Origin: Burkholderiales bacterium
GTDB lineage: Bacteria; Pseudomonadota; Gammaproteobacteria; Burkholderiales; Burkholderiaceae_C
Direction: 5' to 3'
NCBI GenBank assembly: GCA_018969975.1
Contig: JAGWXI010000020.1
Span: forward strand, 1-36,463
Length of the DNA: 36,463 bases
Shown: positions 6,382 to 28,391 of the stretch, one piece after another
Layout: each line of letters starts with the position of its first letter
Position numbering within the stretch: the first letter of the stretch is position 1
Position numbers and translations under genes: made by a program
The notes under the pieces: model-generated
The model's input: the letters and a program-made list of their open reading frames with translations, nothing else
What the model was told of the DNA's origin: nothing
Database searches by the model: none

Positions 6382-7128
6382 TTAAACGACTTGTGATCGA
6401 TAGATCACAGACAACCCGCCCACAAGTAACAGTTGCAACATGATTCTTCGCAAACGTTGCGGGGGTAATTGATGCCTGAGTTTTGATCCAATAACCAAGC
6501 CCAAGAGACAAAATGGAATTAAACCCAAAGCCAATAAGTGCAACTGCTGCTCTAGAAGTAAACCTGAAACGCCAAAAACTACCAGCCGAACAAGCGCACT
6601 AATGAGAACCGTTGCCGCCACTGTGGCCCGTAATGCCTCCACCTCAGGTATGCGACGGATTAAATAAACCGTGTAGATTGGCCCGCCTGTACCAAATGCC
6701 GCACCAAAAACGCCTCCTACTGTACCCGCCATGTAAGCCCAACTAGGAGAAATAGCTTTATGCGAAGCCTGCGCTATCCAAAGACTCCAAACCGAGTGCC
6801 CCACAATAAAAAGTCCCAGTAATAACAACAAGATGCTCGAAGGCAGCTCGCTCAAAGCTTGTACACCTAAAACAACGCCGACCAACATAGGTAACATGAG
6901 TCGAACCAACTCTGAGCGTTGAACTAGGCGCCACTGCCGCAAACCCACAAAAGTAGTTGCTAACAAATCGGTCAACAAGATCAAAGGGACCACGGTGGAA
7001 AGAGGTAACAGATGCGCTAAGACGGGCACGGCCACCATGGCCGCACCAAATCCAGTGATACCAAAAACCGAATAGGCACACAGGACCGTTAACGCAACCA
7101 GAAAAAAAACAGCGTAATCTGTGAACAA
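6382..7128 (-). CDS. TauE/SafE family membrane permease (putative sulfite exporter)
   Basis: This is a 248-residue hydrophobic protein with about seven to eight membrane segments. It has the repeated Gly-rich pattern of the TauE/SafE (DUF81) family: SVFGITGFGAAMVAVPVLAH in the first half and GTVGGVFGAAFGTGGPIY in the second. Family members export sulfite, sulfoacetate or related anions, though many are uncharacterised. The start is TTG at 7128, five bases after the LysR stop, with an AAGAAG-like ribosome site; no ATG occurs before residue 28. Context supports sulfite export, because the upstream operon contains a SuyAB-like pair that would release sulfite. It converges on dnaG with only 18 bases between stops. 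Confidence 0.75.
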   Translation of the reverse strand: MFTDYAVFFLVALTVLCAYSVFGITGFGAAMVAVPVLAHLLPLSTVVPLILLTDLLATTFVGLRQWRLVQRSELVRLMLPMLVGVVLGVQALSELPSSILLLLLGLFIVGHSVWSLWIAQASHKAISPSWAYMAGTVGGVFGAAFGTGGPIYTVYLIRRIPEVEALRATVAATVLISALVRLVVFGVSGLLLEQQLHLLALGLIPFCLLGLVIGSKLRHQLPPQRLRRIMLQLLLVGGLSVIYRSQVV

Positions 7129-7133
7129 TGCAG

Positions 7134-8054
7134 CTACTTCTTGGCTTTTACGCTTCTTAATTGCACCCGTTTGCTTGTTGTCAAGTCCTGTCCAGAGACC
7201 GCTTTCAACGCGTCTGCCAAAACTTGTATGAGGTGCGTGCGCGGACTGTTACGGGGATAGAGCAGGCCCAAGCGACGGGTAAGCGGTGGGTTGCCAAATG
7301 GCGAGGTGACCACCGAAGAAGGAAACTCATTTTTGACGCCACGCGAAGGAACAACCGAAGAGCCTAATCCGTTGGCCACCATCGCAATCACCCCCTCCAA
7401 GGAGTCGATCTCCATCATTGAACGGACCATAATTTTGCGTTTGGTGATTTCTTGCTGAATCAGATTGCCAACACTGGCCGAACGATTAAAGCGAACATAC
7501 GGCGTTCCCTCAAGAATGGCCTTGTCACCCGTCAGAAAAGTCGATTGGTGGGTGATAACCACCAAAACTTCATCTACAAAAGGAATAAATTCATGATCTT
7601 CCAAAATTTTTTCAGGTTGGTTCAAGATGGCCGCATCCAACTGTCGATGGAACATCGTTTTTTCAAGTTCGTGGGTAAGTCCTGTTGTGAGATGGATATC
7701 CATTGGTTGACCCCCTTCTTGCAAACGTTTCAATGCCAGGGGTAATAAACCTGAAACACAGGTATGCACAGCACCTAATTTGATGAGTCCAGCAGTGTCA
7801 TCTCTCTTGAGAGCAGCATTCATGCTCTCCCAGTGTGTGATCAATTCGCGAGCACGTCGCGTGAAATCCAAACCCGCCTCAGTAAGAACTGGTGGCCTGC
7901 GGCTGCGGTCAAAAAGCGTGGTTCCAAGTTCATCTTCCAAAGATCGCATTTGCATACTCACCGCGGAGAGTGAGAGACGAAGAGAAACTCCAGCCTCAGC
8001 AAAACTGCCACGGTCCGCAATTGCAATCAAGGAATAGAGATTTTTGATGTCCAT
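7134..8054 (-). CDS. LysR family transcriptional regulator
   Basis: The 306-residue protein begins MDIKNLYSLIAIADRGSFAE and has the LysR winged helix-turn-helix (residues 1-60), including LSLSAVSMQMRSLEDELGTT and LFDRSRRPPVLTEAG. The effector-binding domain follows, from about residue 90. It lies downstream of the large catabolic operon in the same direction and immediately before the TauE/SafE gene, with which it is almost certainly co-transcribed. It is the natural candidate regulator for that operon. A LysR-type box (ATTG-N7-CAAT) overlaps the candidate promoter at 22655-22669. The effector is unknown. Confidence 0.85.
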   Translation of the reverse strand: MDIKNLYSLIAIADRGSFAEAGVSLRLSLSAVSMQMRSLEDELGTTLFDRSRRPPVLTEAGLDFTRRARELITHWESMNAALKRDDTAGLIKLGAVHTCVSGLLPLALKRLQEGGQPMDIHLTTGLTHELEKTMFHRQLDAAILNQPEKILEDHEFIPFVDEVLVVITHQSTFLTGDKAILEGTPYVRFNRSASVGNLIQQEITKRKIMVRSMMEIDSLEGVIAMVANGLGSSVVPSRGVKNEFPSSVVTSPFGNPPLTRRLGLLYPRNSPRTHLIQVLADALKAVSGQDLTTSKRVQLRSVKAKK

Positions 8055-8088
8055 CGCTTCTTTATTCGTAAGGTGTTTAACCCTCTAT

Positions 8089-8102
8089 TGCGCCTTAGCG
8101 CA
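8089..8102. other. short hairpin between fumarase beta and lysR genes
   Basis: TGCGC-CTTA-GCGCA forms a 5-base-pair GC-rich stem in the 75-base gap. There is no T run on either side, so it is not a convincing terminator. It may mark a processing point between the enzyme operon and lysR. Confidence 0.25.
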
Positions 8103-8129
8103 GGAGATTGATGCAGTTGAAGACAAATC

Positions 8130-8813
8130 TCACATCACTTCATTTTTTCGGTCATCGGTTTCGCCAAAGCGATGGAGTGCGGGTGGTTTCAAGCCTTGGT
8201 AGAGTTTTTCAATACCTGCATTGATTTCCTCGCCGTGTTGCGCAAACAAGGAATTGCCCTCGAGATCGCTCTCTACTATGAAGGGACCAAAATTTTTCAC
8301 CTGAAAAATCCACATCGCCTGTGCAATACCCAAATCATCCAGCCAATGCACTTCTTTCACCTGTTCAATACCCCGCCCGAGAAGTGCGCCAGTTCCATAG
8401 CCAACGGTCGTGAGGTAGATGGCGCCATGGGGGGCTAAAACCTTTTTGTAATCTTCCGCAGGCATGCCGCCCTTACCAATCAAAATGCGACAGCCCGAAG
8501 TTTCAAGCCAACGAGGCATCCATTTAGAAAACCTAAAACTAGCAGTTGCAGTGACAGCCCCCACCTTGTAACTACCATCTGCATTCGGAGCCGCTGCAGG
8601 AGAGCAATGAAAGTTCACATTGGTCAGCGATTTCAGATCAACTGGCAAGGCTTGCCCTTCATCCAAAACCCGTTTATAAACGCCTTCGCGTGCGGTGTAG
8701 ACCAACCCGTTGAGATACACGGCAGCCCCCAATTCGAGTTTGGCAATTTCATCCGTTTTGGCAGGAAGATCTAAATGAAAGATCTTCATCTCATCATTTT
8801 GCTGCGTCACCAT
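8130..8813 (-). CDS. class I fumarase / L-tartrate dehydratase-type hydratase, beta subunit
   Basis: The 227-residue protein corresponds to the carboxy-terminal domain of class I fumarases. Family landmarks are GAAVYLNGLVYTAREGVYKR, IGKGGMPAEDYKKVLAPHGA and VESDLEGNSLF. It should pair with the alpha subunit to form a [4Fe-4S] hydro-lyase adding water to fumarate or a fumarate analogue; family members also accept mesaconate or dehydrate tartrate. The start ATG at 8813 overlaps the alpha stop by seven bases (ATGGTGA), so the subunits are coupled; a longer open frame upstream simply overlaps the alpha gene. A second possible start, ATG at 8789, is eight codons in. Its place after an SDH-like complex suggests sequential dehydrogenation and hydration, or the reverse. 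Confidence 0.88.
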   Translation of the reverse strand: MVTQQNDEMKIFHLDLPAKTDEIAKLELGAAVYLNGLVYTAREGVYKRVLDEGQALPVDLKSLTNVNFHCSPAAAPNADGSYKVGAVTATASFRFSKWMPRWLETSGCRILIGKGGMPAEDYKKVLAPHGAIYLTTVGYGTGALLGRGIEQVKEVHWLDDLGIAQAMWIFQVKNFGPFIVESDLEGNSLFAQHGEEINAGIEKLYQGLKPPALHRFGETDDRKNEVM

Positions 8814-9742
8814 GCCACTGTCTCCCTTCGCATGTAAGGCGTGAACCAGAGGGGATCGGTGCGATAGTCGATTCGACCGTCCGGATAAATACGCGCCGTT
8901 GCGCGCCGTGAAGAAAGGCAAAACGAGTGGATGCTCACCGGCATGCCCCCCGTGTGGGTATGCCCGACCTCGATATGGCAATCCACCACCATCGAAGAAC
9001 CGACAAAACCCATGGCACCCATTCCGATGCTGTTGCCCAGCTTCATCATGTCGACTTCGAGTTCGGCAATTTTGGGGTCGGGGTTGCGATCACCCACCAC
9101 TCGTAAACATGCAGCCTGTTTGCCCAACTGCATGCAAGTGTCTTTGGATCCCCCGATACCAATGCCAACAATAGCCGGCTGGCAAGCCAAACCACGTTTG
9201 CCAAACGCAATCAGTGTGTCGAGCACAAAGCGTTTGATGCCATCAATGCCGTCACCGGGAAACAGCATTCGGTAATCACTGCCGAATAACCCGCCCTTGT
9301 GAACCGTTGTGATATCAATCCAATCGGCGTTTGGCTCAAACGACCATTCAATTTCCGGGGCATTGATGCCCACGTTGTTGTTGTGATCGGTGCGCCACAG
9401 GGGGTGCACACGATTGGGTCGCAATGGAACTGATGCGGTGGCATCCGCCGTGGCTTTTCTTAATGCATGCTCAACTGCAACAAAACCTTGCTCGACAGAT
9501 GCCTCATTACCCACCTTGACGTAGTAACGTGGTAAGCCAGTGTCAGCGCACATCGGTCGACGATCTTGATCGGCTGCCTCCCAGTTTTCCATCATGGCGT
9601 GAATGACAAAACGAGGCAACTTACCGGTTTCTGTTTTTTGTAAGGTCTGGATACCGTTTTTGTAGTCTTCGGGTATTTCAATGGCTGCGCGATGCATGAT
9701 CTCCAAAGCAGCTTGTTGAACTTTTTGAATAGGAATTTTCAT
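8807..9742 (-). CDS. class I fumarase / L-tartrate dehydratase-type hydratase, alpha subunit
   Basis: The 311-residue alpha subunit carries the three Cys expected to hold the oxygen-sensitive [4Fe-4S] cluster: C65 in MCADTG, C187 in LACQPAIVGIGIGG and C275 in IHSFCLSSRRAT. The GHTHTGGMPV segment is also typical. Reaction: reversible hydration of fumarate or a substituted fumarate in the cytoplasm. The ATG at 9742 has a GAGGT ribosome site and begins MKIPIQKVQQAALEIMHRAA. The frame is open 15 codons further up, but that overlaps the preceding flavoprotein gene. It follows the flavoprotein by ten bases. Class I fumarases of Burkholderiales can be promiscuous (fumarase/mesaconase), so the true substrate is open. 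Confidence 0.9.
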   Translation of the reverse strand: MKIPIQKVQQAALEIMHRAAIEIPEDYKNGIQTLQKTETGKLPRFVIHAMMENWEAADQDRRPMCADTGLPRYYVKVGNEASVEQGFVAVEHALRKATADATASVPLRPNRVHPLWRTDHNNNVGINAPEIEWSFEPNADWIDITTVHKGGLFGSDYRMLFPGDGIDGIKRFVLDTLIAFGKRGLACQPAIVGIGIGGSKDTCMQLGKQAACLRVVGDRNPDPKIAELEVDMMKLGNSIGMGAMGFVGSSMVVDCHIEVGHTHTGGMPVSIHSFCLSSRRATARIYPDGRIDYRTDPLWFTPYMRRETVAW

Positions 9743-9752
9743 GCGCTTGACC

Positions 9753-11501
9753 TCAAACTTCCACCACGGGGGGTTTACCAACTTCACCAGTAATCAACGA
9801 CTCGCCTGGTCGAACAATGTCGAAAGAAACTGGAACCATTTCAAGTTCGATCGCCTCTTCCTTGGCGTGAACACGGGTGTAGCAACTGCTTTCAAAATCG
9901 CCGGAATCGGGAAAGTCTTCGCGAAAGTGTGCGCCTCTGCTGTTCTCTCTTGCCAGAGCAGACAAGGCAATAACTTTCGAGATATCAACCAAACTTTGCA
10001 GATTCAGCCAGTCATGCCAGGTTAGGTTGAAACGTCGGTCGCCATCGGCGACGCCCATCTGCAGCAGTTCTTCGCGATGTTGCGCAATCGAGGCCAAGCC
10101 ACGCTGCATGGCTAGCTTGTTGCGCAAGACACCCACGTCATCCCACATCGTGCTAGCCAAGCGATCACGCAATGCGTGCAACTGACCCGGCCCTTTGGCA
10201 AATGGGTACTCCGCGCGCTCGACACCTTGTGCGATAACCCGCTGGTCTGGTTCGCGCCAACGGCTTTGCGTGACTACATACTTCGCCATCGAGTCACCCG
10301 CAATGCCCCCAAAAACGGTTGAATTGGCAACCCCGTTACCCCCCAAACGGTTGGCACCATGCACTCCACCGCAGTCTTCACCAGCGGCAAAAAGGCCCTC
10401 AGAGGCGGTAGAGCCATCTACTTCAAATTCAACCCCACCCATCAAATAGTGTGCGGTGGGAACCACCTCAACACGACCACCCGCTAAATCAAACCCGCAG
10501 TCTTTACAACGGTTGACCATGCCAGGAAAAGACTTAGCAACTTTCTCCGCCCCAAGATGGCTCATTTGAATATAAATACCACCCATGGGCCCTGTACGAC
10601 CGGCACGCATTTCGGCATAAATGCCGCGCGAGACTACATCACGCGTAGCCCTCTCTCCACGCGGATCGTAGTGGGTCATGAAGCGTTCTCCTGCTCCGTT
10701 GATCAGATAGCCACCCGCGCCGCGCAAGCCCTCCTCCAAAACCGTGCCAGTCATTCGCGTATCGGGTCCACCAAGCAGGCCTGTTGGATGGAATTGAACC
10801 ATCTCCATATCTCTGAGCTTGAGGCCATAGCGCAATGCCATGGCCAGTCCATCACATGTTTTATCGCCCGATGGCGTATGAAATTTGTACATCGTGGGCC
10901 CAGCACCTGTGGCCAGCAAAACTGCTTTGGCCTGCACCATGCGGTAATTACCTGTTCGCATGTCAATGAACAATACACCCGCAATGCCAGAACCATCACT
11001 GGCGGGAATCAACTCGATGGCCCGGTGTTCTTCCATCTCTTGCACATCTAGCGCCCTGACCTGCTCCATCAATCGGTTGATGATTTCAATGCCCGTCAAA
11101 TCAGCTTTGTGAACCGTGCGATCAAAACTCTGACCAGCAAAAGCTTTTTGATGCAATGAACCGTCTGGATTGCGATCAAAGAAGCAACCCATTTCATTTT
11201 CAAGTTCACGTACCCGCTCAATCGCTCCTTCAACCAAGCGCCACGCCAAGTCTTGCCTGGGTAGCCATTTGCCGCCTTCTATGGTGTCCATGAAGTGGCG
11301 CTCCACCGAATCTCCACTAGACAGGGCTACGTTGTACCCTCCTTGGACCATACGTGTACAACCGCATTTGCCCAGCAGGCCCTTGACTGCAACTGTGATT
11401 TGCAAGGCTGGATTGGCTTTTTTGGCATGCAAAGCGGCAAAAAGGCCGGCGCCACCGGTACCCAAAATAAGAATGTCCGTCTTGTGTTTGTCTATATTCA
11501 T
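9753..11501 (-). CDS. SDH/fumarate reductase-type flavoprotein subunit, lacking the covalent-FAD His
   Basis: The 582-residue protein has the FAD dinucleotide fold ILGTGGAGLFAALHA near residue 13. Active-site motifs of the family are present: QFHPTGL, EGLRGAGG, PTAHYLMGG and HGANRLGGNG. Two features are odd. At the position of the FAD-linking His (E. coli FrdA His44, in SHTVAAEGG) it has Cys48 in GCTRMVQGG, so FAD is probably not covalently bound. The substrate-side loop normally reading TEGCRGEGG reads EEGLRGAGG, replacing conserved Thr and Glu. The ATG at 11501 overlaps the anchor-subunit stop (ATGA). It forms a complex with the adjacent iron-sulfur and two membrane subunits. A non-succinate dicarboxylate, or operation as a reductase, is plausible. 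Confidence 0.85.
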   Translation of the reverse strand: MNIDKHKTDILILGTGGAGLFAALHAKKANPALQITVAVKGLLGKCGCTRMVQGGYNVALSSGDSVERHFMDTIEGGKWLPRQDLAWRLVEGAIERVRELENEMGCFFDRNPDGSLHQKAFAGQSFDRTVHKADLTGIEIINRLMEQVRALDVQEMEEHRAIELIPASDGSGIAGVLFIDMRTGNYRMVQAKAVLLATGAGPTMYKFHTPSGDKTCDGLAMALRYGLKLRDMEMVQFHPTGLLGGPDTRMTGTVLEEGLRGAGGYLINGAGERFMTHYDPRGERATRDVVSRGIYAEMRAGRTGPMGGIYIQMSHLGAEKVAKSFPGMVNRCKDCGFDLAGGRVEVVPTAHYLMGGVEFEVDGSTASEGLFAAGEDCGGVHGANRLGGNGVANSTVFGGIAGDSMAKYVVTQSRWREPDQRVIAQGVERAEYPFAKGPGQLHALRDRLASTMWDDVGVLRNKLAMQRGLASIAQHREELLQMGVADGDRRFNLTWHDWLNLQSLVDISKVIALSALARENSRGAHFREDFPDSGDFESSCYTRVHAKEEAIELEMVPVSFDIVRPGESLITGEVGKPPVVEV

Positions 11502-11848
11502 CCCATCACCCCCATTACAAACAACACGCCAAACACCGCAGAGGTGACCACACCCCAACTGATCCAAGACAGCCGCGCGTCATGGACACTGCGCCAAGGA
11601 AGTAGCTCTAGTGCCAGCAAACGCAAACCAAACGACATGTGCATGGAGAGAAACACCACAAGCCCCCACTCACCCAATTTAAATGCCGGCATTTCTGCCA
11701 ACTTTATAAATTGGTTGAGCCGATTGGCATCTTCCAACGCCATGCCAAGAACGTAGAAATGAATGGGTAAAAAAATCCCCAAGGCCAAGCCAGATAAACG
11801 GTGTCCTAAAAACGCCCAGTAAGCTTTGTGATTGCGGGATGACTTCAT
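11498..11848 (-). CDS. SDH/FRD-like cytochrome b / membrane anchor subunit 2
   Basis: The 116-residue protein has three hydrophobic segments. HRLSGLALGIFLPIHFYVLG near residue 15 matches the SdhC signature H-R-x-S-G with downstream His, used for quinone and heme contact. Further segments are VVFLSMHMSFGLRLLALEL and ISWGVVTSAVFGVLFVMG. It should anchor the catalytic subunits in the cytoplasmic membrane and pass electrons to or from quinone. The ATG at 11848 overlaps the stop of the other anchor (ATGA), and its own stop overlaps the flavoprotein start (ATGA), giving continuous coupling. Sequence similarity in this family is low, so the SdhC-like label rests on the HRxSG motif and position. Confidence 0.82.
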   Translation of the reverse strand: MKSSRNHKAYWAFLGHRLSGLALGIFLPIHFYVLGMALEDANRLNQFIKLAEMPAFKLGEWGLVVFLSMHMSFGLRLLALELLPWRSVHDARLSWISWGVVTSAVFGVLFVMGVMG

Positions 11849-12180
11849 AGCAAAAGCCCACCTACAGCCACCACCGCACGCATTCCCAACAAAAATAAAA
11901 CCAAGGCCATCAACCACGACAGCGCATTAACCAAGGAGGGGTTCCAGTCAGACCACTCCAACATCACATTACGCATACCTATCGGCACATGGATGCTGAC
12001 GCTGATCACAAACAAAAAATAGAAAAAAATCCAGCCCCAATGGCCTTGGGTTCGAGACAATATTTCTCCGGCACTCAATCCGTCACGCACCGCATACACG
12101 ATCAGCACCAAGTGCATCAGCACCAAGGGTGCCATAACAAGTGCACTCAGTCTTTGAAGCACAAAAAGGGTTTGCGCCAT
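11845..12180 (-). CDS. SDH/FRD-like cytochrome b / membrane anchor subunit 1
   Basis: The 111-residue protein has three predicted membrane helices: LSALVMAPLVLMHLVLIVYA, WIFFYFLFVISVSIHVPIGM and LSWLMALVLFLLGMRAVVAV. His23 and His64 are plausible heme b ligands, and the start MAQTLFVLQRLSALVMAP resembles SDH anchor subunits. The gene begins one base after the iron-sulfur subunit stop and overlaps the next anchor by ATGA. With two anchors, an iron-sulfur subunit and a flavoprotein, this is a complete four-subunit complex of the succinate:quinone oxidoreductase superfamily rather than a soluble enzyme. Confidence 0.8.
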   Translation of the reverse strand: MAQTLFVLQRLSALVMAPLVLMHLVLIVYAVRDGLSAGEILSRTQGHWGWIFFYFLFVISVSIHVPIGMRNVMLEWSDWNPSLVNALSWLMALVLFLLGMRAVVAVGGLLL

Positions 12181-12181
12181 T

Positions 12182-12922
12182 TCAGCCTCTCTTGAAAAAT
12201 GACTTCACCGCGCTTTTCTTCAAACCCGCAATACTGCCGGTTGGGCTCAGACTCACTGGGCAGTGGGTCATACAACTGCCTTGGCTGTGACAGGCCTGCG
12301 CTCCCCCGCCAGCAGTGGCTTGCTTGAGTAATGCATCAGGGTCTGCATGGCGTTCATCGTTGTAAAGCGTCCAAGCACGGTTAAGCGCCGCAGGTCCGAG
12401 GTAGTCTTTTTTCCAAGCCACCACATCGCACGCCGCGTAGCACACACCACAGTTGATGCACTCAATGGCAGCATCAGCCATTTTTCTTTTTTTGCTCTCT
12501 GGGGAAATGGTAGCGGGCGGGTCGTTGCGAGAAGCAGTTCCAACAAAAACATTGCCGGCTTTTCTCCACTTGTCGAAAAACTCTGACATGCTCACCACCA
12601 AATCTTTGATCCTAGGCATATTGCCCAAGGGTTCAATAGTGATAGCGCCGCCTTGCTCGACCACACTGACATGGGTGCGGCAAGTCCAGCGGGGCTTGCC
12701 ATTGACATTCATGGCACAAGAACCGCACACGCCCACCCGACAGGCAAAGCGGTAGGACAGCGTTGGATCTTGTGACCTCTGAACTTCAGTAACCACATCC
12801 AATACGGTTTGGTTGTCACGCCAAGGAACTTGGTAAGCAACCACCTTGCCCTCGTCCTCGCCAACACCACGATTGATGCGCACGGTAAGCATGCGCTGAT
12901 GATTGATAACTGCTTCTTGCAT
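12182..12922 (-). CDS. SDH/FRD-type iron-sulfur subunit
   Basis: The 246-residue electron-transfer subunit has the family layout. The amino-terminal plant-ferredoxin-like domain carries the [2Fe-2S] Cys (CRVGVCGSC and WTC). The carboxy-terminal domain carries CINCGVCYAAC and CHSQGSCMTHCPVSL for the [4Fe-4S] and [3Fe-4S] clusters. It shuttles electrons between the flavoprotein and the membrane quinone site. The ATG at 12922 (MQEAVINHQRMLTVRINRG) was preferred. A GTG at 13006 in the same frame would add 28 residues rich in Pro, Ser and Asn and overlap the preceding lyase gene, so it is a possible but less likely start. It starts the SDH-like block after the SuyB-like gene. Confidence 0.88.
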   Translation of the reverse strand: MQEAVINHQRMLTVRINRGVGEDEGKVVAYQVPWRDNQTVLDVVTEVQRSQDPTLSYRFACRVGVCGSCAMNVNGKPRWTCRTHVSVVEQGGAITIEPLGNMPRIKDLVVSMSEFFDKWRKAGNVFVGTASRNDPPATISPESKKRKMADAAIECINCGVCYAACDVVAWKKDYLGPAALNRAWTLYNDERHADPDALLKQATAGGGAQACHSQGSCMTHCPVSLSPTGSIAGLKKSAVKSFFKRG

Positions 12923-12968
12923 GGATGATGCCTTCAGCCCTAAAGGCTTATTGGTTGTTGCCCCAGGA

Positions 12969-14144
12969 TCAGGCAGATTCAAAGAGTCTGGTGAGAACGA
13001 ACTCACGGTGCCCCAACGCCTCAGCGGCTGTGTGACGGCCGTTGATGGTTCGCATCATCATCTCCAACAACTGGTCCCCTGTCTGGTCCATAGTGCGTTC
13101 GCGTTGCAACAATCCTGAGCAGTCCACGTCAATATGCTCACCCATGGTGCGCACTGTGCGCGGATTGGCGCAGATTTTGATGACTGGAACGATTGCATTG
13201 CCGATCACATTACCCTGTCCGGTAGGGAAAAAGTGCACCACGAAACCAGAGGCGGCACATAAGGTCACCATTTCGGCAGCAGCAGAGGAAGAGTCCATGA
13301 ACCACAAACCAGGATGTGTTGGCTCTTCGGCTTTGTCAAGCACGCCATCGACCGTGCATTTGCGGCCAATTTTCTGAATGTTGCCCAATGCTTTTTCTTC
13401 AATTGTGGTCAGTCCTCCCGCAATGTTTCCTTTGGTGGGTTGTGAATCAGACAGGTCCGTTGTTTTGTGGCGGTTAATCATGTCCTGATAGCGATTGAAC
13501 ATAAACATAAAACGCTCACGCACTGCATCGTTGGCACACCTTGCAGCCACGATGCTCTCTCCGCCAGTCAGCTCAGACGTTTCACCAAAAACCAAGGTGG
13601 TTCCCAAAGCATGCAATTTGTCAAACGCATCGCCCACAGTGGGGTTGGCTCCACAACCGCTGGTGGTGTCGGATTCACCGCATTTGGTAGACACCCACAA
13701 ATCGCTGATGGGGCATACCTCGCGTTGCTTCTCGCTAGCCCATTGCACATACTCTTTGGCAACCTGTGAGGCTTTCATAATGGTTTGGTGGTCTCCATGA
13801 CCTTCGATGCCAAAGCCTGTAACTGGTTTGCCGGTTTTGGCAATGCCATCGACCACTTTTTTGGTCCAACTGTCTTCGATACCAATCACCACCACAGCGG
13901 CTACATTGGGGTTGCTGCCAGCTCCGATCAGGGTGGCAAAGTGCAAATCAAGATCAGCACCAAATTGCAAGCGCCCATAGGGATGAGGAATTGCCATAAC
14001 TCCTTGAATGTTGTGGGCGACCGCCTCAGCTGCCGCGTTGGACAAATCATCCAGTGGCAAGATGACAACATGGTTTCGGACCCCGACTCGTCCGTTTTCG
14101 CGGCGATATCCCCAGAAGGTTGTGTTTTTTGTAAGTAATGACAT
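12969..14144 (-). CDS. suyB: UxaA-family lyase large subunit, SuyB-like ((2R)-sulfolactate sulfo-lyase beta)
   Basis: The 391-residue protein is the large catalytic domain of the altronate/galactarate dehydratase (UxaA) family. Visible landmarks are [20 protein letters not shown] at the start, [20 protein letters not shown] (family metal-site region), [19 protein letters not shown] and [12 protein letters not shown]. Altronate dehydratase carries this domain and the SAF domain in one chain; here the SAF domain is the separate gene just upstream, as in SuyAB, which eliminates sulfite from (R)-sulfolactate to give pyruvate. An AAAGGAT ribosome site precedes the ATG. Neighbouring HpsN-like and exporter genes favour a sulfonate substrate. 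A sugar-acid dehydratase is the main alternative. Confidence 0.68.
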
Positions 14145-14166
14145 GAAATATCCTTTAAGGGTTTGA

Positions 14167-14448
14167 TTACCAGCGTTTGGTTTTGATGTTGTGAACGTGG
14201 GCGTGCTCGCCCACCTTGATGGCTGTAACGACTTTGCCGATGTCTACGCCGTATTTGATGACGGTGTCACCAATCGCCATATTTTTCATGGCTACCTTGT
14301 GACCCAATGGTATGTCTGCCATGCAAGGGATTTCGATGGTTCGGTCTTCATCCAGTATCAACGCAGTCAAGGTTGAACCGGCTTTGACATTTTCGGTGAC
14401 GACCACTGCGACGCTGTCGTCTGGGTCATGTAATACGCAATGAATCAT
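14167..14448 (-). CDS. suyA: SAF-domain UxaA small subunit, SuyA-like ((2R)-sulfolactate sulfo-lyase alpha)
   Basis: The 93-residue protein is a single SAF domain, the amino-terminal domain of altronate dehydratase. It contains [33 protein letters not shown] and [12 protein letters not shown]. As a free subunit of this size it matches SuyA, partner of SuyB. The ATG at 14448 has a perfect AAGGAG ribosome site seven bases away; the frame is open further upstream but overlaps the zinc dehydrogenase gene. It lies 22 bases before the large-subunit gene and 55 bases after the zinc dehydrogenase stop. Specificity for sulfolactate is inferred from context. Confidence 0.68.
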
Positions 14449-14503
14449 GGAGAACTCCTTATAAAAAATGGTTGTGATCGATTGGAAATAGGGGAGAGAA
14501 CTG

Positions 14504-15505: not shown

Positions 15506-16848
15506 TGACAAAACTCACTTTCTTTTGCAACCAACGCAATGGCGTCGGCAAGGCGTTGCACCATGTTTTCAATATCACTGGGGGCGCATACAAACGGGGG
15601 TGCTAAGACCAGCGAGTCACCGGGCGCGCGCGTGAGTAAGCCCAAATCGAATGCAACCTGCTGAACGCGCGCACCATGGCGCCCCGGTTGGTCTTTCACT
15701 GCAGATAACTCAATGCCTGCCGCCAAGCCATAGTTACGCACGCTCACTACGGAGGGCAAACTACTGAGCCGGTGAACGGCATTTTCAAAACAGCGCGACA
15801 GCTCCTTGACACGTTGCACCAAAGACTCTTGCTCAATCACATCGAGCATTGCCAATCCCGCGGCACTGGCTAGGGGATGACCTGAATACGTGTAGCCGTG
15901 CATCAACTCAGAGAGATGGAGCGGGCCTTGCATGATGGCATCGTGGATTCTTCGATGCACGATCACTCCGCCCAAGGGAACGGCGCCATTGCTCACCGTT
16001 TTAGCAAACAAAATCATGTCAGGCACAACGCCAAATACGTCTGCGGCAAACATCCCCCCAAAACGACCAAAGCCAGTAATAACTTCATCAAACACCAGCA
16101 ACAAGCCATGTCGATCACAAATATCACGCAACTTTTGCAAATACCCCACTGGTGGAACCAAGACGCCAGTAGAGCCAGCCAACGGCTCGACAATCACTGC
16201 GGCGATGTTGTTGTCTCCATGCAAAGCCACAATACGATGCTCGAGTTCGTCGGCCATCTCAGCACCCAAGGCTGGTTGACCCCGAACAAATGCCTGCGTG
16301 CTGGGATTCCAAGTGCTTTGCAGATGGTCACTTCGCAACATAGCGTTACCAAACACCCGGCGGTTGTTGAGCATGCCCCCCACGGACATGCCGCCAAAAC
16401 CAACACCATGAAAATCACGCTCGCGCCCAACAAATAGACTGCGTTGCCCCTGTCCAAGTGCTTGCCAGTAAGCCATGGCAATTTTCATGGCTGTATCGCA
16501 GGCTTCTGAGCCACTGTTGACGAGAAAAACCCGGTCCATGCCTGGTGGCGCATGCTCTGCGATGCGTTGCGACAAGGTGAAAGCACCCGGGTGTCCCACC
16601 TGAAAATTAGAAGCAAAATCGAGCTGATCGATTTGTGCCTTCATAGCCTCAGAAATGCGGGGATGGCGATGACCAGCACCCACGCACCACAAACCCGATG
16701 TGCCGTCCAAAATACTGCGTCCGTCCGGAGTGCGGTAGGCAATGCCTTGAGCAGACACCACCATGCGTGGTTCTGCTTTGAACTGTCGATTGGGGGTGTA
16801 GGGCATCCAAAAAGCGTCTAGCTTTTTAGGGTTGGGTGATGGATTCAT
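15502..16848 (-). CDS. class III aminotransferase, omega-amino acid:pyruvate type
   Basis: The 448-residue PLP enzyme begins with [18 protein letters not shown], characteristic of beta-alanine / omega-amino acid:pyruvate aminotransferases. Asp254 in [11 protein letters not shown] should contact the PLP ring nitrogen, and Lys283 in [14 protein letters not shown] should form the Schiff base. The late segment [14 protein letters not shown] carries the Arg that binds substrate carboxylate. It moves a terminal amino group to pyruvate, giving alanine and an aldehyde. In a sulfonate operon it might handle taurine, homotaurine or another aminosulfonate, but beta-alanine-like substrates cannot be excluded. 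It is coupled by ATGA overlaps to the SDR upstream and the zinc dehydrogenase downstream. Confidence 0.82.
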
Positions 16849-17612
16849 TTTGCCGAATACCCTCCATCAAGCATCAGGGTCTGACCCGTAACGTAGGCTG
16901 AGGCATCACTGGCGAGAAAAACAGCGATGCCATCTATATCCCGCAATTCACCATTACGTCCGACACAGGTTTGAGCAGCATGTCGATTTGCCAGAGCGGT
17001 ATCTGCAAACACAGGTGCAGTCAGTGCAGTTGGAAAAAAACCTGGAGCTATGGCATTGCAGGTGATACCAAAAGGCCCCCACTCGACTGCAATCGCACGT
17101 GTTAATTGAACCACCCCCCCTTTGCCAGCGCCATACGGCGCACTGTTGGCAAAAGCACGGTAGCTCTGCAAACTACCCACATTGATAATGCGCCCCCAGC
17201 CACGCTGCTTCATAGCAGGCGCCAGCGCTTGGGTAAGAAAAAAAGGCGCACTCAAATGCACATGGATTTGCGATTGCCAACTAGCAATGGAGACTTCACC
17301 AAACGGTTCTCGCAAATTCACGCCCGCAGCGTTGACCAAGATATCTACCCTATGCTGACGCATCACCTCATGCGCACCTTCAAGCGCCAAAGCTGGATCG
17401 GACAAATCGCATGCCAACGAATGCGATTGAATGCCCGCTTCTTGCAAGCGTTGCGTAGTTTGCGTCAGGTGCGCTGCATTACGCGCCATCAACACCACTT
17501 GTGCGCCAGCCTCACCCAATGCGCGCGCCATGGCTTCCCCCAATCCTGAACTGCCACCTGTTACCAATGCTGTTTTACCTGTCAAATTGAACAGGCTTGG
17601 AGTGCGGCTCAT
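16845..17612 (-). CDS. SDR family oxidoreductase, HpsO/HpsP-like candidate
   Basis: The 255-residue classical SDR has [20 protein letters not shown] (TGxxxGxG), NAAG, the catalytic Ser in [12 protein letters not shown], the YGAGK active site and an ending with [16 protein letters not shown], close to gluconate/polyol dehydrogenases. It likely oxidises a hydroxyl of the imported substrate with NAD(P). The ATG at 17612 ([13 protein letters not shown]) was preferred to a TTG five codons upstream; neither has a strong ribosome site. It follows the HpsN-like gene by 55 bases and overlaps the aminotransferase start by ATGA. Together with the zinc dehydrogenase it matches the pair of DHPS dehydrogenases known from Cupriavidus, by context only. 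Confidence 0.82.
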
Positions 17613-17667
17613 AGATGGTTTGGCCAACTACGACGCGCGTAGAAAATAAACTTGTCAACCATGGCCG

Positions 17668-18999
<1,332 letters not shown>

Positions 19000-19027
19000 T
19001 TAACTTACTTTTCTTCAAACTTCGATT

Positions 19028-19065
19028 TAGAGCCCCATCAGAGGCAAACACCGCCTCAGGCTCTA
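19028..19065. other. intercistronic hairpin B (two-part stem)
   Basis: Outer arms TAGAGCC / GGCTCTA (19028-19034, 19059-19065) enclose inner arms GAGGC / GCCTC (19041-19045, 19053-19057). It lies between the binding-protein gene and the HpsN-like gene. No T run follows on the minus strand, so it is not an intrinsic terminator. An mRNA-stabilising or processing element is likely. Confidence 0.55.
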
Positions 19066-19070
19066 GAGAG

Positions 19071-19105
19071 CCATGCTCCGTGATCGCTGGTCTCATAGAG
19101 CATGG
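19071..19105. other. intercistronic hairpin A
   Basis: CCATGCTC (19071-19078) pairs with GAGCATGG (19098-19105), eight base pairs with a 19-base loop. It lies ten bases after the binding-protein stop in the direction of transcription and next to hairpin B. Such structures often protect the 3' end of an abundant binding-protein mRNA. Confidence 0.55.
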
Positions 19106-19114
19106 GGATCAGGC

Positions 19115-20167
19115 TTAGCGGGTTGAGTTTGCGAAATCGCGCAGCTTGGAGTCAGCTTGCACCATCTTCATGTACTCATCGGTAACAAAGTCTGCGACGT
19201 TGGGGACTTGTTGGACTGCACCGGTTTCACGAATGAAAGAAGACAATTCGGTAAACCACTTATCGATTTCAGAGCCAGACCCCGAGCGGTCCATTGCCTT
19301 GAGTTGTTGCGCCAAAGTGTAGGTGGGGCGAGTCTCAAATTCCTTGTTCATGGCGGCATCGCTGATGCTGACGCCACCCTTGGCGTAAAAATCTTTCATC
19401 ATGCGAATGGCTTCTGGACGATTGGCGCCCATCCAACTCCAGGCACGTAAGTAAACAGCCAAAAACTTCGCAACGTTTTGAGGGTTTTGCTTGGCATAGT
19501 CACCACGGGCAATTAGAGCACCCGGAACAATCGCACCACTGTCTTTACCGCTACAAAGCATTTTTGCTCCAGCTTTCTCTTCAACGGTATAAGTGTTAGG
19601 GGCCCACATACCGGCCAGGTCGGTGCTGTTGGAAGACAAGGCGGAGATGATTTCAGCTTGTCCCATGTTTTTCATCACCACATCTGACTTTTTCAGCCCA
19701 TATTTTTTCAAGCAAGCTTGCACTGCAAAGTCCGCAGTTGAGTTTTGCGTGAGCGTGATAGTTTTTCCCCGCAAAGTGGATGCTGGGTCCTTGGCAAATT
19801 CACCGGCCGCTTTGCTGCTACCGATCAAACCGTTGGCTGCAGACTCGTCGTTGGATACACCAATTGTTTTGATGCCAAAACGTACATGGCCCAGAACCGC
19901 GGGCACAGAACCCGTGCCGCCTACGTCCCAAGAGCCCGCTGCTGCTGCTGCAATTTGTGGCACGCCAGCGGGAAAGGTTGAGAATTCAGGGGCCAAACCT
20001 ACGTCCTTCCACCAACCTTTTTCAGTAGCGATGTGAAACGGAAGCGCCCAATATAGTGATGGTTGGTAGCTGACTTTGATGGGCGTGAGCGCCTGCGCTT
20101 GTGCAACGCTTGATATACCGAACGCAAGACCCACACCGAGGGCCACCGCTGCAATTGAATTTCTCAT
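19115..20167 (-). CDS. ABC transporter periplasmic binding protein, taurine/sulfonate (NMT1/SsuA-like) type
   Basis: The 350-residue protein has a Sec signal peptide (MRNSIAAVALGVGLAFGISS, then a cleavage site at AQA-QA) and the NMT1/THI5-like solute-binding fold: KVSYQPSLYWALPFHIATEK, then FPAGVPQIAAAAAGSWDVGG and ALSSNSTDLAGMWAPN. It should capture the substrate in the periplasm for the adjacent ATPase and permeases. The ATG at 20167 has a GGAG ribosome site; a TTG ten codons upstream overlaps the ATPase gene and would extend the signal region. Family members bind taurine, alkanesulfonates, nitrate, pyrimidine precursors or aromatic acids. Sulfonate is favoured here because of the downstream SuyAB-like and HpsN-like genes. 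Confidence 0.85.
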   Translation of the reverse strand: MRNSIAAVALGVGLAFGISSVAQAQALTPIKVSYQPSLYWALPFHIATEKGWWKDVGLAPEFSTFPAGVPQIAAAAAGSWDVGGTGSVPAVLGHVRFGIKTIGVSNDESAANGLIGSSKAAGEFAKDPASTLRGKTITLTQNSTADFAVQACLKKYGLKKSDVVMKNMGQAEIISALSSNSTDLAGMWAPNTYTVEEKAGAKMLCSGKDSGAIVPGALIARGDYAKQNPQNVAKFLAVYLRAWSWMGANRPEAIRMMKDFYAKGGVSISDAAMNKEFETRPTYTLAQQLKAMDRSGSGSEIDKWFTELSSFIRETGAVQQVPNVADFVTDEYMKMVQADSKLRDFANSTR

Positions 20168-20193
20168 CTTTATGTCTCCATTTAGTTGTGGTT

Positions 20194-20991
20194 TCAATGA
20201 TCTGTGCCTGCATGCTCTTGACGCAAGGACTTCCAGATTCGGGTTCGAAGATGCACGAAACTCTCAAGGTCCATGACATCTTCAATCTTGCTGTAACGGT
20301 CCCAGTCCTGTGACTCGCGAACTTGCTTCACATCAAGAATTTCTTTGATCTTGCCCGGGCGACTGGTCATGATGACCACACGGTCTGCCAAATACACCGC
20401 TTCTTCTACCGCATGGGTAATAAAAAGAACGGTGCGGGGGTTTTTGCGTGCTAACTTGACCAATTCTTCTTGCATCACCACCCGGGTCTGGGCATCGAGC
20501 GCACCAAAGGGCTCATCCATCAATAACACCTGCGGATCGAGTGCGTAAGCACGGGCAATAGCTACCCTTTGCTGCATGCCGCCGGAGAGTTGATGGGGAA
20601 ATGCGCTCTCGTAGCCTTGCAAATTCATGAGCCCGATGTAGTGCATCGTAATTTTGTGGCGCTCTTCTTGGGCAAGGCCCTTGCTTCTGAGGCCAAAGTC
20701 AATGTTGTCGTAAACAGACTTCCATGGAAAAAGCGCAAACTGTTGGAATACAACAGCACGATCGGGTCCAGGGTGCGTGACCTCCACATGGTTAACACGA
20801 ACCGAACCAGAGCTTGGGAACTCCAACCCAGCTGCCATACGCATACAGGTAGTTTTTCCACAACCCGAAGGTCCGACAATCGCAACAAACTCTTGGTCTT
20901 CAACCGTGAGATTGATACCTGCCAAAGAGGTGAAGTCTTTTCCATCACGCTGAAAAATACGGGTGACTTCATTGAATTGAATGACTGCCAT
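20194..20991 (-). CDS. ABC transporter ATPase, TauB/SsuB-like
   Basis: The 265-residue ATPase has Walker A GPSGCGKTT near residue 39, the Q-loop in VFQQFALFPWKSV, signature LSGGMQQRVAIARA, Walker B VLLMDEPFGALD and the H-loop FITHAVEEAVYLAD. This is the TauB/SsuB pattern of the nitrate/sulfonate/taurine uptake family. It energises import through the two permeases encoded just upstream. It precedes the binding-protein gene by 26 bases. Confidence 0.9.
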   Translation of the reverse strand: MAVIQFNEVTRIFQRDGKDFTSLAGINLTVEDQEFVAIVGPSGCGKTTCMRMAAGLEFPSSGSVRVNHVEVTHPGPDRAVVFQQFALFPWKSVYDNIDFGLRSKGLAQEERHKITMHYIGLMNLQGYESAFPHQLSGGMQQRVAIARAYALDPQVLLMDEPFGALDAQTRVVMQEELVKLARKNPRTVLFITHAVEEAVYLADRVVIMTSRPGKIKEILDVKQVRESQDWDRYSKIEDVMDLESFVHLRTRIWKSLRQEHAGTDH

Positions 20992-21031
20992 GAACCTGAA
21001 CTTTCCCTTTAAGTGGTTTTCAAAACTGCAA

Positions 21032-21811
21032 TTAATAGGTGCGATGCTTTAGCAGCAATCGCTCTAGTCGCCTGAGCAACACATCAATCACAACTCCCAC
21101 AATACCGATGGCGATCATGCCTGCCATGACGGTGTCGGTGGCAATAGCGCTTTGTGCACGCACAATTAAATTACCCATTCCGCTGCTAGCAGCTATCAAT
21201 TCAGCACCCACTAGAGACATCCAACCCAAGCCCGCACCTATGCGCAAGCCCGCAATGATCGATGGAACAGCCGCGGGGAACAACACATCTGTAATCATGC
21301 GAAAGCTGTTAACCCCCAAGACACTGGCTGCCTCAAGATAGAGCACATCGACGTTGCGTGCACCACGGTAGGCATTGATCAAACAGGGAGGAAAAGCCCC
21401 GGCAAAAATAATCAGTGCTGGCCCCCCCGCTCCCGTGCCAAACCACAGTGCGGCAAAGGGTACCCAAGCCACTGGCGCGATGAACCGTAGCGCGTCAAAA
21501 AGTGGCGTGACCACATCATCTAACCAACGAAACCAACCCATGGCCAAACCCAAAGGAACGCCAATCACAGCAGCCAAACCAAAGCCCATTGCAAAGCGTC
21601 GCAGACTTGCCAACATGTGCTCATCCAGCGTTGATCCTGCAAATGGTTGGTGAAAGAGAGCAAGAAATTTGGCAACGACTTCGTGCGGCATAGGCAGAAA
21701 CTGGGGCGGCGTTAAATTGACAAAGCGCGCCAAATACCAAAACGCCAGAAAACCAAGTGCGCCCATCACCGTGAGGCTTAAAAATTGTCCGTTCGAAAGC
21801 GGTTTATTCAT
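21032..21811 (-). CDS. ABC transporter permease 2, TauC/SsuC-like
   Basis: The 259-residue integral membrane protein of the BPD-transport family has about six helices. The ATPase-contact loop near residues 160-190 contains YLEAASVLGVNSFRMITDVL and ends FPAAVPSIIAGLRIGAG. The ATG at 21811 is read as TGATG with the stop of permease 1, the usual layout for coupled subunits; an upstream ATG at 21835 in the same frame lacks a ribosome site. It is clearly related to permease 1, so the channel is probably a heterodimer rather than the TauC homodimer. Confidence 0.86.
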   Translation of the reverse strand: MNKPLSNGQFLSLTVMGALGFLAFWYLARFVNLTPPQFLPMPHEVVAKFLALFHQPFAGSTLDEHMLASLRRFAMGFGLAAVIGVPLGLAMGWFRWLDDVVTPLFDALRFIAPVAWVPFAALWFGTGAGGPALIIFAGAFPPCLINAYRGARNVDVLYLEAASVLGVNSFRMITDVLFPAAVPSIIAGLRIGAGLGWMSLVGAELIAASSGMGNLIVRAQSAIATDTVMAGMIAIGIVGVVIDVLLRRLERLLLKHRTY

Positions 21812-22605
21812 CAGGCTGTGCGTCCTTTGCGCCATGGCATAGCGCGGTTCTCAACCTCGCCGAGCAACCAGGTAGTGCTCGCACCACATAAACCAACAAA
21901 GACCATTGCCACCAAAATCATGGCAGGAAAAATATCCTGCGCGGCCTGATTCAAAATACTGCCCAAACCGTACAAAGCGCCTATGAGTTCAGCAGCAACC
22001 AAGGTTGTCCAACTTGCTTGTAAAGACAATCGCAAGCCGGTAAAAATCATAGGCATAGCCCCTGGCAATAGCACCTCCCTGACCAAGCGCCAACCTCGAA
22101 TGCCCAGCATTTGGGAAGCCTCCAAAACCGGCGTATCGATATTTCTCACGCCGGTGTAGGTATTGATAACCGAAGGCACAAAGGCAGCCACAAAAATCAC
22201 CAAAATCTTGGAACCATCCTCTAACCCCAACCAGACAATTGCTAGCGGTATCCAAGCCAAGGGAGGTATGGGCCGTAACAATAAAAAAGCGGGATTGATA
22301 AGCGCCTCTGCCCTACGCGAGTGGCCCATCAATACACCGAGAGAAACGCCTACTGCTACTGCGACGGCAAAACCCATAGCCACTAGTTTCAAACTATGCA
22401 ACACATGCTGCAGCAACTTACCGTTGCCGTATCCCTCATCCTGAATAAAAACAAAGGCCTTCCAAACTTCATCAGGACGTGGGAAACGGGCAGCATTGAT
22501 CCAGCCAAAAACAGATGAACTCAAAAACCACAACAACAACGTGACCACGATGGTGATCCCACCAATCCACGCACGTCTGTTTTTTTGATCTTTGGCTATC
22601 GCCAC
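21811..22605 (-). CDS. ABC transporter permease 1, TauC/SsuC-like
   Basis: The 264-residue permease has about six membrane helices and a contact loop with VLEASQMLGIRGWRLVREVL followed by LPGAMPMIFTGLRLSLQASW. It is the first gene of the large operon. GTG at 22605 was chosen with AGGAG three bases upstream; GTG at 22611 is possible, but its ribosome site would overlap the start codon. The paired but divergent permeases suggest ancient duplication within the nitrate/sulfonate/taurine transporter family. Confidence 0.84.
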   Translation of the reverse strand: MAIAKDQKNRRAWIGGITIVVTLLLWFLSSSVFGWINAARFPRPDEVWKAFVFIQDEGYGNGKLLQHVLHSLKLVAMGFAVAVAVGVSLGVLMGHSRRAEALINPAFLLLRPIPPLAWIPLAIVWLGLEDGSKILVIFVAAFVPSVINTYTGVRNIDTPVLEASQMLGIRGWRLVREVLLPGAMPMIFTGLRLSLQASWTTLVAAELIGALYGLGSILNQAAQDIFPAMILVAMVFVGLCGASTTWLLGEVENRAMPWRKGRTA

Positions 22606-22639
22606 ACACACTCCTCAGTGTTCTTAAATACCTGTGAAT

Positions 22640-28382: not shown

Positions 28383-28391
28383 GGCTACTCC

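Follow-up and report, generated by a model that had tools for sequence, protein, structure and literature searches.

3-Sulfopropanoate (3-sulfopropionate) is a product of the anaerobic breakdown of sulfoquinovose and of 2,3-dihydroxypropane-1-sulfonate (DHPS), and 3-sulfopropanoate, 3-sulfoacrylate, and 3-sulfolactate are the sulfonate analogues of succinate, fumarate, and malate. A closely related described gene cluster is hpsRNOUPsuyAB of Cupriavidus pinatubonensis (accessible part of PMC11382572), of which a plasmid copy occurs in strain HN-2. Cupriavidus necator H16 is described as converting homotaurine to 3-sulfopropanoate, there a by-product (Mayer and Cook 2009, as relayed in the accessible parts of PMC11489063 and PMC5320631), and Roseovarius nubinhibens ISM as degrading homotaurine via 3-sulfopropionate, sulfoacrylate, and sulfolactate, according to a thesis cited in PMC11489063, the accessible part of which names no genes for the route. 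In the openly licensed PMC literature we found no genes assigned to the conversion of 3-sulfopropanoate to sulfolactate; subscription papers and theses may differ. Here, we describe an operon in a 36,463-nucleotide stretch of DNA (contig JAGWXI010000020.1, positions 1 to 36,463; "the window") from a Burkholderiales bacterium. The operon resembles the C. pinatubonensis cluster and adds to it a module of succinate dehydrogenase (SDH)-like and fumarase-like genes.

We estimate at roughly two chances in three that this one operon serves the import of C3 sulfonates and two branches, from DHPS and from 3-sulfopropanoate, that meet at sulfolactate. Imported C3 sulfonates would be funnelled to (R)-sulfolactate, which the lyase SuyAB would split into pyruvate and sulfite, and the sulfite would exit through TauE or be oxidized. 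In the first branch, drawn from close homology to characterized enzymes, HpsO and HpsP would interconvert the DHPS enantiomers and HpsN would oxidize (R)-DHPS with NAD+ to (R)-sulfolactate. In the second, which we infer, a membrane-bound SDH-like complex would convert 3-sulfopropanoate to 3-sulfoacrylate with transfer of electrons to quinone, and a class I fumarase-like hydratase would add water to give sulfolactate. An aminotransferase may feed this branch by converting homotaurine to 3-sulfopropanal, with HpsN itself or an aldehyde dehydrogenase encoded elsewhere as candidates for the oxidation that follows; the block encodes no aldehyde dehydrogenase, and several are encoded elsewhere in the genome. 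By the priority rules L-malate is (S) and L-sulfolactate is (R), so that, by our own reasoning, fumarase-type L stereochemistry would yield (R)-sulfolactate and suit SuyAB directly.

The second branch would pass through the same intermediates as those reported for Roseovarius, a route to which the window offers a gene module. As described in the accessible parts of the sources above, the C. necator H16 route has aminotransferase and aldehyde oxidation in common with the proposed one; unlike it, the window route would carry 3-sulfopropanoate on to sulfolactate and sulfite. HpfXYZ of Enterococcus gilvus (accessible part of PMC11489063) are likewise relatives of succinate-pathway enzymes adapted to 3-sulfopropionate but differ from the window module in that 3-sulfopropionate is their end product, their hosts ferment, and the enzymes belong to other families.

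Organization of the operon

Window open reading frames (ORFs) and family scans define one block of ~16 kb with 18 ORFs, all on the minus strand, from 22611 to 6382. A preliminary description of this DNA had placed its list of sulfonate genes on one strand within 16 kb, and every gene on that list is present. ORFs overlap at 10 of the 17 junctions, although part of this overlap is an artifact of over-long ORF starts, and the widest spacing is 133 bp, the pattern expected of an operon. In gene order, the block contains the following, beginning with an ATP-binding cassette (ABC) importer and including a short-chain dehydrogenase/reductase (SDR).

21811..22611, minus strand: ABC importer permease 1; Pfam BPD_transp_1 (5e-24), best NCBIfam matches SaoP/TauC permeases, below cut-off.
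21032..21835, minus strand: ABC importer permease 2; Pfam BPD_transp_1 (3e-26), NCBIfam SaoP/TauC-like, below cut-off.
20194..20991, minus strand: ABC importer ATPase; Pfam ABC_tran (3.5e-29), NCBIfam SaoA/taurine-ATPase-like, below cut-off.
19115..20197, minus strand: ABC importer substrate-binding protein, SsuA type; NCBIfam SsuA_fam (2e-37), below cut-off.
17668..18981, minus strand: HpsN, predicted (R)-DHPS 3-dehydrogenase; PDB 8v35, identity, tree, and motif.
16845..17627, minus strand: HpsO-like SDR dehydrogenase; identity to C. pinatubonensis HN-2 HpsO, PDB 9pvq and 8wwf.
15502..16848, minus strand: class III omega-aminotransferase, candidate amine substrate homotaurine or taurine; NCBIfam AptA.
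14504..15511, minus strand: HpsP-like zinc alcohol dehydrogenase; identity to the alcohol dehydrogenase at the hpsP place in HN-2.
14167..14520, minus strand: SuyA, likely true start ATG near 14448; 60% identity over 93 residues to the HN-2 partner.
12969..14144, minus strand: SuyB, predicted (R)-sulfolactate sulfo-lyase large subunit; identity to HN-2 SuyB, tree.
12182..13006, minus strand: SdhB-like iron-sulfur subunit; Pfam Fer2_3 (1e-28), NCBIfam dhsB (178 bits, cut-off 88), Cys motifs.
11845..12180, minus strand: SDH-like membrane anchor 1; Pfam Sdh_cyt (6.5e-7).
11498..11917, minus strand: SDH-like membrane anchor 2; NCBIfam succ_dehyd_cytB (3.8e-13; 49.7 bits, just under the cut-off of 52.3).
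9753..11567, minus strand: SdhA-like flavoprotein, proposed 3-sulfopropanoate dehydrogenase, likely start near 11501; alignment, co-occurrence with SuyB.
8807..9787, minus strand: class I fumarase-type hydratase N part, proposed 3-sulfoacrylate hydratase; Pfam Fumerase (7e-71).
8130..8981, minus strand: class I fumarase-type hydratase C part, likely start near 8813; Pfam Fumerase_C (3e-25).
7134..8054, minus strand: LysR-type regulator; Pfam LysR_substrate (2e-30) and HTH_1 (7e-17).
6382..7128, minus strand: TauE/SafE family exporter; Pfam TauE (3e-31).

SuyA and SuyB, the small and large subunits of the lyase, are encoded by separate genes, SuyA having its own ORF, and the LysR gene separates the fumarase genes from the TauE gene. 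The key matches, notably those of HpsN and SuyB, far exceed what chance would give, and the weakest family matches of the block are those of the two membrane anchors. The TauE/SafE assignment of the preliminary description is borne out by a Pfam score of 109.4 bits against a gathering cut-off of 32.6, with sulfite as the probable cargo.

Orthologues of HpsN, HpsO, HpsP, and SuyAB occur in the same relative order here and in the C. pinatubonensis cluster. The window operon has an ABC rather than a major facilitator superfamily (MFS) importer and a LysR rather than a LacI-type regulator, and on these two differences from the HN-2 cluster we regard it as a variant of the hps cluster. Its additions are the aminotransferase, the SDH-like complex, the fumarase-like hydratase, and TauE.

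The DHPS branch and the sulfolactate lyase

The preliminary description had identified the HisD-like protein of the block as HpsN and the lyase as SuyAB-like, and phylogenetic placement supports both: neither protein groups with HisD or with sugar-acid dehydratases. The HisD homologue matches PDB 8v35, "sulfopropanediol 3-dehydrogenase" (the solved C. pinatubonensis enzyme, CpHpsN), with E = 8e-233 over 433 residues; it is 78.5% identical to HpsN of strain HN-2, versus 33% to HisD of Escherichia coli. In a tree of nine rows it joins HpsN at a fork with 100/100 support, apart from E. coli HisD. The HisD of the genome itself is a separate gene (contig C23, 41% identity to E. coli HisD) that trees with the E. 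coli protein. According to the accessible part of PMC11382572, a G-R-Y-A/S-H motif separates HpsN from HisD, and His126 and Lys353 recognize and contact the sulfonate, respectively. The window protein carries GRYAH with His127, where E. coli HisD has Leu. All 11 CpHpsN residues checked, mapped via the HN-2 protein, are identical in the window protein; among them are the HpsN-specific His126 and also Lys353, whose respective counterparts in E. coli HisD are Leu and Tyr.

Comparison of the two further dehydrogenases with HpsO and HpsP also held. The SDR is 61% identical to HN-2 HpsO and matches PDB 9pvq (6e-97) and 8wwf ("HpsO"; 3.7e-78), and the zinc enzyme is 60% identical to the product of the HN-2 gene at the hpsP place, which is annotated there as galactitol-1-phosphate dehydrogenase. 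SuyB is 85% identical over 391 residues to SuyB of C. pinatubonensis HN-2, versus 29 to 30% to GarD and UxaA, and in a tree of 16 rows the window lyase groups with SuyB and not with GarD or UxaA (fork support, 97/95). SuyAB is thus predicted to cleave (R)-sulfolactate to pyruvate and sulfite.

The ABC importer had been noted earlier as an unfamiliar addition to hps clusters. It does differ from the MFS importer of the HN-2 cluster, but its relatives lie beside hpsN in four loci (L035, L044, L061, and L084), and binding-protein copies of 64 to 86% identity adjoin hpsN in L035, L044, and L061. An ABC importer next to hpsN is not unique to the window; its substrates are presumably C3 sulfonates. 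One of these loci, L061, is on a contig titled Cytophagales, and its HpsN is 87% and its importer genes 77 to 88% identical to those of the window; probably the contig was misbinned or the genes were transferred recently. In sum, the block very likely breaks down small sulfonates such as DHPS, and the DHPS route is well supported, purely on homology.

Association of the module with SuyB

To place the SDH-like/fumarase-like module in a wider context, we scanned 399 genomes of the order (cut-offs, E ≤ 1e-150 for the SdhA-like protein, ≤ 1e-100 for SuyB, and ≤ 1e-150 for HpsN). The SdhA-like protein was found in 51 genomes, SuyB in 72, and HpsN in 17. SuyB was present in 50/51 genomes with the SdhA-like protein versus 22/348 others (Fisher p = 6e-45), and in 49/50 when the window genome was excluded (p = 3e-44); the one SDH-like genome lacking it is G211. 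Because related genomes are not independent, we also counted by genus, which corrects for this in part: SuyB occurred in 25/25 SDH-like genera versus 7/134 others. The two genes lie within 20 kb on the same contig in 40 of the 51 genomes, and in the remaining 11 SuyB is on another contig (9 genomes), 1.9 Mb away on the same contig (1 genome, G098), or absent (1 genome). HpsN, in contrast, accompanies the SdhA-like protein in only 11/51 genomes, and among genomes without HpsN, SuyB is present in 40/40 SDH-like genomes versus 17/342 others. The module therefore tracks SuyB rather than DHPS use. Dehydrogenase and hydratase families tied in this way to a sulfolactate-consuming lyase, even where HpsN is absent, point to sulfolactate formed from 3-sulfopropanoate as the simplest product. 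The earlier proposal of an operon for DHPS or a related C3 sulfonate thus stands by homology but was incomplete in leaving the SDH-like and fumarase-like genes as unexplained additions. Because SuyB accompanies this conserved module in HpsN-free genomes as well, we prefer to view the operon as a funnel to sulfolactate that is fed from DHPS and probably also from 3-sulfopropanoate.

A scan of the genome collection yielded a best 80 loci with SdhA-like proteins of 65 to 86% identity, the closest relatives being those of Cupriavidus and Achromobacter. Among these 80, 74 have an SdhB-like gene, 72 a hydratase N part, and 69 a C part, with several contigs ending mid-module. From gene order and identity we distinguish type 1 (SdhB-C-D-SdhA-FumN-FumC, as in the window) from type 2 (SdhB-C-D-FumN-FumC-SdhA, with a hydratase N part ~34 to 38% identical to that of the window); the division is our own. 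Cupriavidus pauculus (L005) has a type 1 module with SuyAB ~7 kb upstream. HpsN is found in four of the 80 loci (L035, L044, L047, and L061), and a fifth has a fragmentary match of 42%. On Paracoccus versutus pTAV3, the module is found together with hpsNOP-like genes and an ABC importer within ~23 kb, and SuyB lies just beyond. In many type 1 loci the fumarase genes are followed by a LysR relative, as in L003-L008 and L010-L012 (58 to 68% identity).

Plasmids show similar neighborhoods. Among the 60 listed of 115 matching plasmid records, 18 plasmids encode an SdhA-like protein of at least 45% identity, and 8 of these also carry a SuyB match, two being haloarchaeal matches of 34 to 35%; in P. 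seriniphilus, SuyB is on a sister plasmid. TauE, YeiH, or other sulfate-exporter-type genes lie near the plasmid modules, as do a sulfite dehydrogenase or oxidase with cytochrome c on two plasmids and an aldehyde dehydrogenase on two. The two haloarchaeal plasmids (L087:7416-14413 and L088:7485-14453) bring together SdhA/SdhB-like, ArgH-family, TauE, and SuyAB-like genes, and no class I fumarase match was found in the stretches fetched. ArgH and the class II fumarases belong to one superfamily, so the hydratase family may have been swapped in haloarchaea; with SuyB-like proteins only 34 to 35% identical to window SuyB, these clusters are suggestive only.

Several observations weigh against a general role of the module in feeding SuyB. 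The 51 genomes of the order sample are mostly type 2-like by identity (63 to 71%), and in the two that are type 1-like besides the window, G158 (85%) and G138 (79%), SuyB is on another contig. We therefore searched for SuyB in the genomes of mostly type 1 loci (50 of the 80 loci given, 49 searched with L076 excluded; the other 30 are mostly type 2 loci and short fragments). SuyB matched in 36 of the 49, including Cupriavidus necator A5-1 with only a 40% relative, and no match was found in 13. Eleven of these 13 records are titled metagenome-assembled genomes, the exceptions being Pseudothauera nasutitermitis and Rhodobacteraceae WD3A24. Type 1 carriers of this kind weaken the idea of a universal SuyB-feeding role, and they must either dispose of the product by another route or use a different substrate. 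In addition, SuyB, in some cases cut, lies inside the fetched flank in only 13/80 loci, many contigs ending early, and the Sulfitobacter S190 plasmid has no annotated sulfite or sulfonate gene within 12 kb of the module.

It is accordingly conceivable, though unlikely, that the module acts on another succinate-like sulfur compound, such as sulfosuccinate or 3-sulfinopropanoate, or on a dicarboxylate, and that its link to SuyB reflects a wider sulfonate island. Besides the 13/49 genomes without a SuyB match, the varied neighbors of the module (a thiamine pyrophosphate [TPP] enzyme, an amidohydrolase, and aldehyde dehydrogenases) and a gene annotated as 3-sulfinopropanoyl-CoA desulfinase ~11 kb from the module on one plasmid would fit such a substrate; the pairing of module and SuyB in 40/40 HpsN-free genomes, however, argues for sulfolactate as its simplest product. 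ORF clustering, made on mechanical ORFs with families mostly over or against known module genes filtered out, placed the TPP enzyme family in the fetched region of 18 loci, one of them a plasmid (e.g., L006:6929-8560, L009, L012, L035, and L056). The family is also present in L009 and L014, both from SuyB-less genomes. Four members scanned scored below the NCBIfam curated cut-offs (acetolactate synthase, Xsc, and others); the enzyme might provide an alternative outlet for sulfolactate or sulfopyruvate. An aldehyde dehydrogenase family occurs in eight loci (L003, L005, L006, L007, L012, L056, L089, and L090), and the two members scanned (L003 and L090) exceed the MMSDH cut-off, which would fit oxidation of 3-sulfopropanal. 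Upstream of the module, ORF clusters in L038, L039, L050, and L052 include a glutamine-synthetase-like protein (scanned in L038) that might gamma-glutamylate an amine substrate, and a Peripla_BP_6-type binding protein lies downstream in L038 and L052.

Sequence features of the SDH-like and fumarase-like proteins

The SDH-like complex has a flavoprotein, an iron-sulfur protein, and membrane anchors, as in complex II. Together with the hydratase it shares subunit make-up, catalytic residues, and cluster Cys with the E. coli set SdhCDAB, FumA, and TtdAB. The proteins differ from the E. coli enzymes in the low identity of the flavoprotein (SdhA, 35%; FrdA, 34%; NadB, 32%), in a Thr254-to-Glu change with an inserted loop, and, in type 1 hydratases, in changes at FumA Q106 and T440.

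For the flavoprotein, the window protein and 79 of the 80 fetched loci, filtered by length and absence of stops, were aligned with E. coli SdhA and FrdA. E. coli SdhA residues His242, Glu255, Arg286, His354, and Arg399 are kept in 80/80 SdhA-like sequences. Thr254 is replaced by Glu in 80/80, and a six-residue insertion before it carries Arg (78 sequences), Lys (1), or Trp (1). The NadB loop is also longer, yet NadB keeps the Thr; the same Glu recurs in Rhodococcus RHA1 and two haloarchaea, whose loops contain Arg or Lys and are shorter by one residue. We take Thr254 to be part of the succinate-binding set of SDH, and the full set including Thr254 does not occur in the SdhA-like family. Given the Glu in 80/80 sequences, the complex, although predicted to work like SDH, is not filed here as SDH. 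The inserted Arg or Lys is a candidate ligand only. One point counts against a straightforward link to a sulfonate: an acidic residue in place of Thr254 brings no obvious gain for sulfonate binding. An AlphaFold model of the protein (14-row alignment; mean predicted local distance difference test score of 68.6, <50 at residues 260 to 276) was too poor in this region to test the loop and was not used for the pocket.

The hydratase alignments, window included, comprised 43 type 1 and 22 type 2 N parts and 32 type 1 and 24 type 2 C parts, retained after similar filtering of the 72 N-part and 69 C-part loci. The three cluster Cys of the N part are kept in 43/43 type 1 and 22/22 type 2 sequences, and FumA R393, T439, R443, and K463 in 32/32 and 24/24 C parts. 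In the window, the cluster Cys are C80, C202, and C290 of the N part, and the catalytic Asp, Thr, Arg, and Lys are present as D82 of the N part and R98, T146, R150, and K170 of the C part. FumA Gln106, Gly188, and Thr440, which we take to be substrate contacts, are kept in type 2 hydratases, whereas type 1 hydratases, like that of the window, have Ala or Gly, Leu, and Ala, respectively. The SdhA-like protein and hydratase thus appear catalytically intact with altered substrate contacts.

That these genes are simply spare citric acid cycle enzymes, handling the pyruvate and electrons released by sulfonate breakdown, is improbable. The proteins do belong to the SDH and class I fumarase superfamilies and retain the catalytic residues, in agreement with such a role. 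The genome, however, already encodes another SdhA (54% identity to the E. coli protein; contig C127) and a further class I fumarase (34% to E. coli FumA; contig C41), so the set is not a housekeeping one; a substrate ligand is replaced across the whole family, and tracking of SuyB in 50/51 genomes is unexpected for such enzymes. Still less probable is a module running in reverse, which would reduce sulfolactate via sulfoacrylate to 3-sulfopropanoate and so serve as an electron sink comparable to fumarate reduction. The flavoprotein is about equally near FrdA and SdhA, but SuyAB from the same operon would compete for sulfolactate, and the sulfite dehydrogenase or oxidase genes near the module on two plasmids point to oxidative mineralization.

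We lean, if only by a little, toward the Thr254-to-Glu SDH-like flavoprotein and its hydratase being the missing 3-sulfopropanoate dehydrogenase and 3-sulfoacrylate hydratase, found in Pseudomonadota and Actinomycetota and, paired with another kind of hydratase, in haloarchaea, and joined here in one operon with the DHPS route and perhaps with homotaurine use. The substrates of the SDH-like complex, hydratase, aminotransferase, and importer are predicted from sequence and gene context. We treat this branch as a strong candidate for the unassigned step. If correct, this assignment would supply testable genes for the missing step of 3-sulfopropanoate breakdown that can be searched for in metagenomes, would show that a segment of the citric acid cycle has been copied to handle a sulfur compound, and would sharpen the annotation of plasmid genes now labeled fumarate hydratase, succinate dehydrogenase, or FAD-binding protein.

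The aminotransferase and other sulfonate genes of the host

The aminotransferase scores 608.4 bits with NCBIfam AptA (cut-off, 500), and its nearest solved structures are omega-amino acid and beta-alanine:pyruvate transaminases (~1e-119). At E = 1e-160 it has a match in 3 of the 398 other genomes of the order, each at 57%, and in the module carriers G322 and G329 the match is on a different contig from the module; three such matches, off-contig where the module is present, allow no inference from neighborhood and so lend the 3-sulfopropanoate branch no help. Homotaurine may be the substrate, on weak grounds. Cysteinolic acid was also considered, and a literature search gave it no support; the idea was not used.

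Taurine is possible as well, since the genome also encodes Xsc. Within ~9 kb on contig C137 (C137:15000-34500) lie genes for Xsc, a Pta-type protein, and the acylating sulfoacetaldehyde dehydrogenase SauS, and the same region has a SulP permease and a 996-amino-acid PhsA-related molybdopterin protein with two smaller ORFs. We take this molybdopterin set to be SoeABC-like by size and order, and it may oxidize sulfite. With Xsc, the phosphotransacetylase-type protein, SauS, and this set in one genome, the host looks like a broad sulfonate user. We accordingly give real but lesser credence to a role of the enzyme as a taurine:pyruvate aminotransferase, one that would supply Xsc, encoded elsewhere in the genome, instead of the 3-sulfopropanoate branch. 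The C137 genes and the beta-alanine:pyruvate-type nearest structures favor this assignment, taurine being, in our analogy, the sulfonate analogue of beta-alanine. The location of the gene inside the hps-suy operon, between the HpsO- and HpsP-like genes with overlapping ends, speaks against it. Homotaurine fits the operon, and taurine fits the enzyme family and Xsc.

Genomic setting of the operon

The host draft genome comprises 2.72 Mb in 167 contigs at 89% completeness, with the window on contig C44. The block is flanked by dnaG, which ends at 6363, and rpoD, which starts at 24067. Measured by match ends, dnaG and rpoD are 17.7 kb apart here; of 11 relatives in the same family, 10 have a spacing of 0.3 to 1.2 kb, and the eleventh has the two genes on separate contigs. 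Among these 11 relatives the SDH-like family was found in none and SuyB in one. From the enlarged dnaG-rpoD gap and the absence of the SDH-like family from these relatives, the block, perhaps with a TctC gene at 22830-23801, looks like a gain in this lineage, and insertion between dnaG and rpoD by gene transfer is likely. A search for flanking repeats or mobile-element ends of the block yielded none that were convincing.

The start region of rpoD (window 24118-24285) contains a run of 12-base repeats inside the coding sequence. Among plasmid-collection records, window RpoD is nearest to those of Caballeronia and Burkholderia, at 66 to 69% identity across ~75% of its length. A partial second RpoD copy, 97% identical to the C terminus of window RpoD, is present in the same genome at C67:4233-4952 and reflects strain mixture or contamination in the draft. 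Further along the window, at 27498-33056, genes of the AP_endonuc_2, HPPD N-terminal-type glyoxalase, shikimate dehydrogenase N-domain, DctP, and DctM families lie on one strand, which we take to be possibly a quinate/shikimate-type catabolic cluster.

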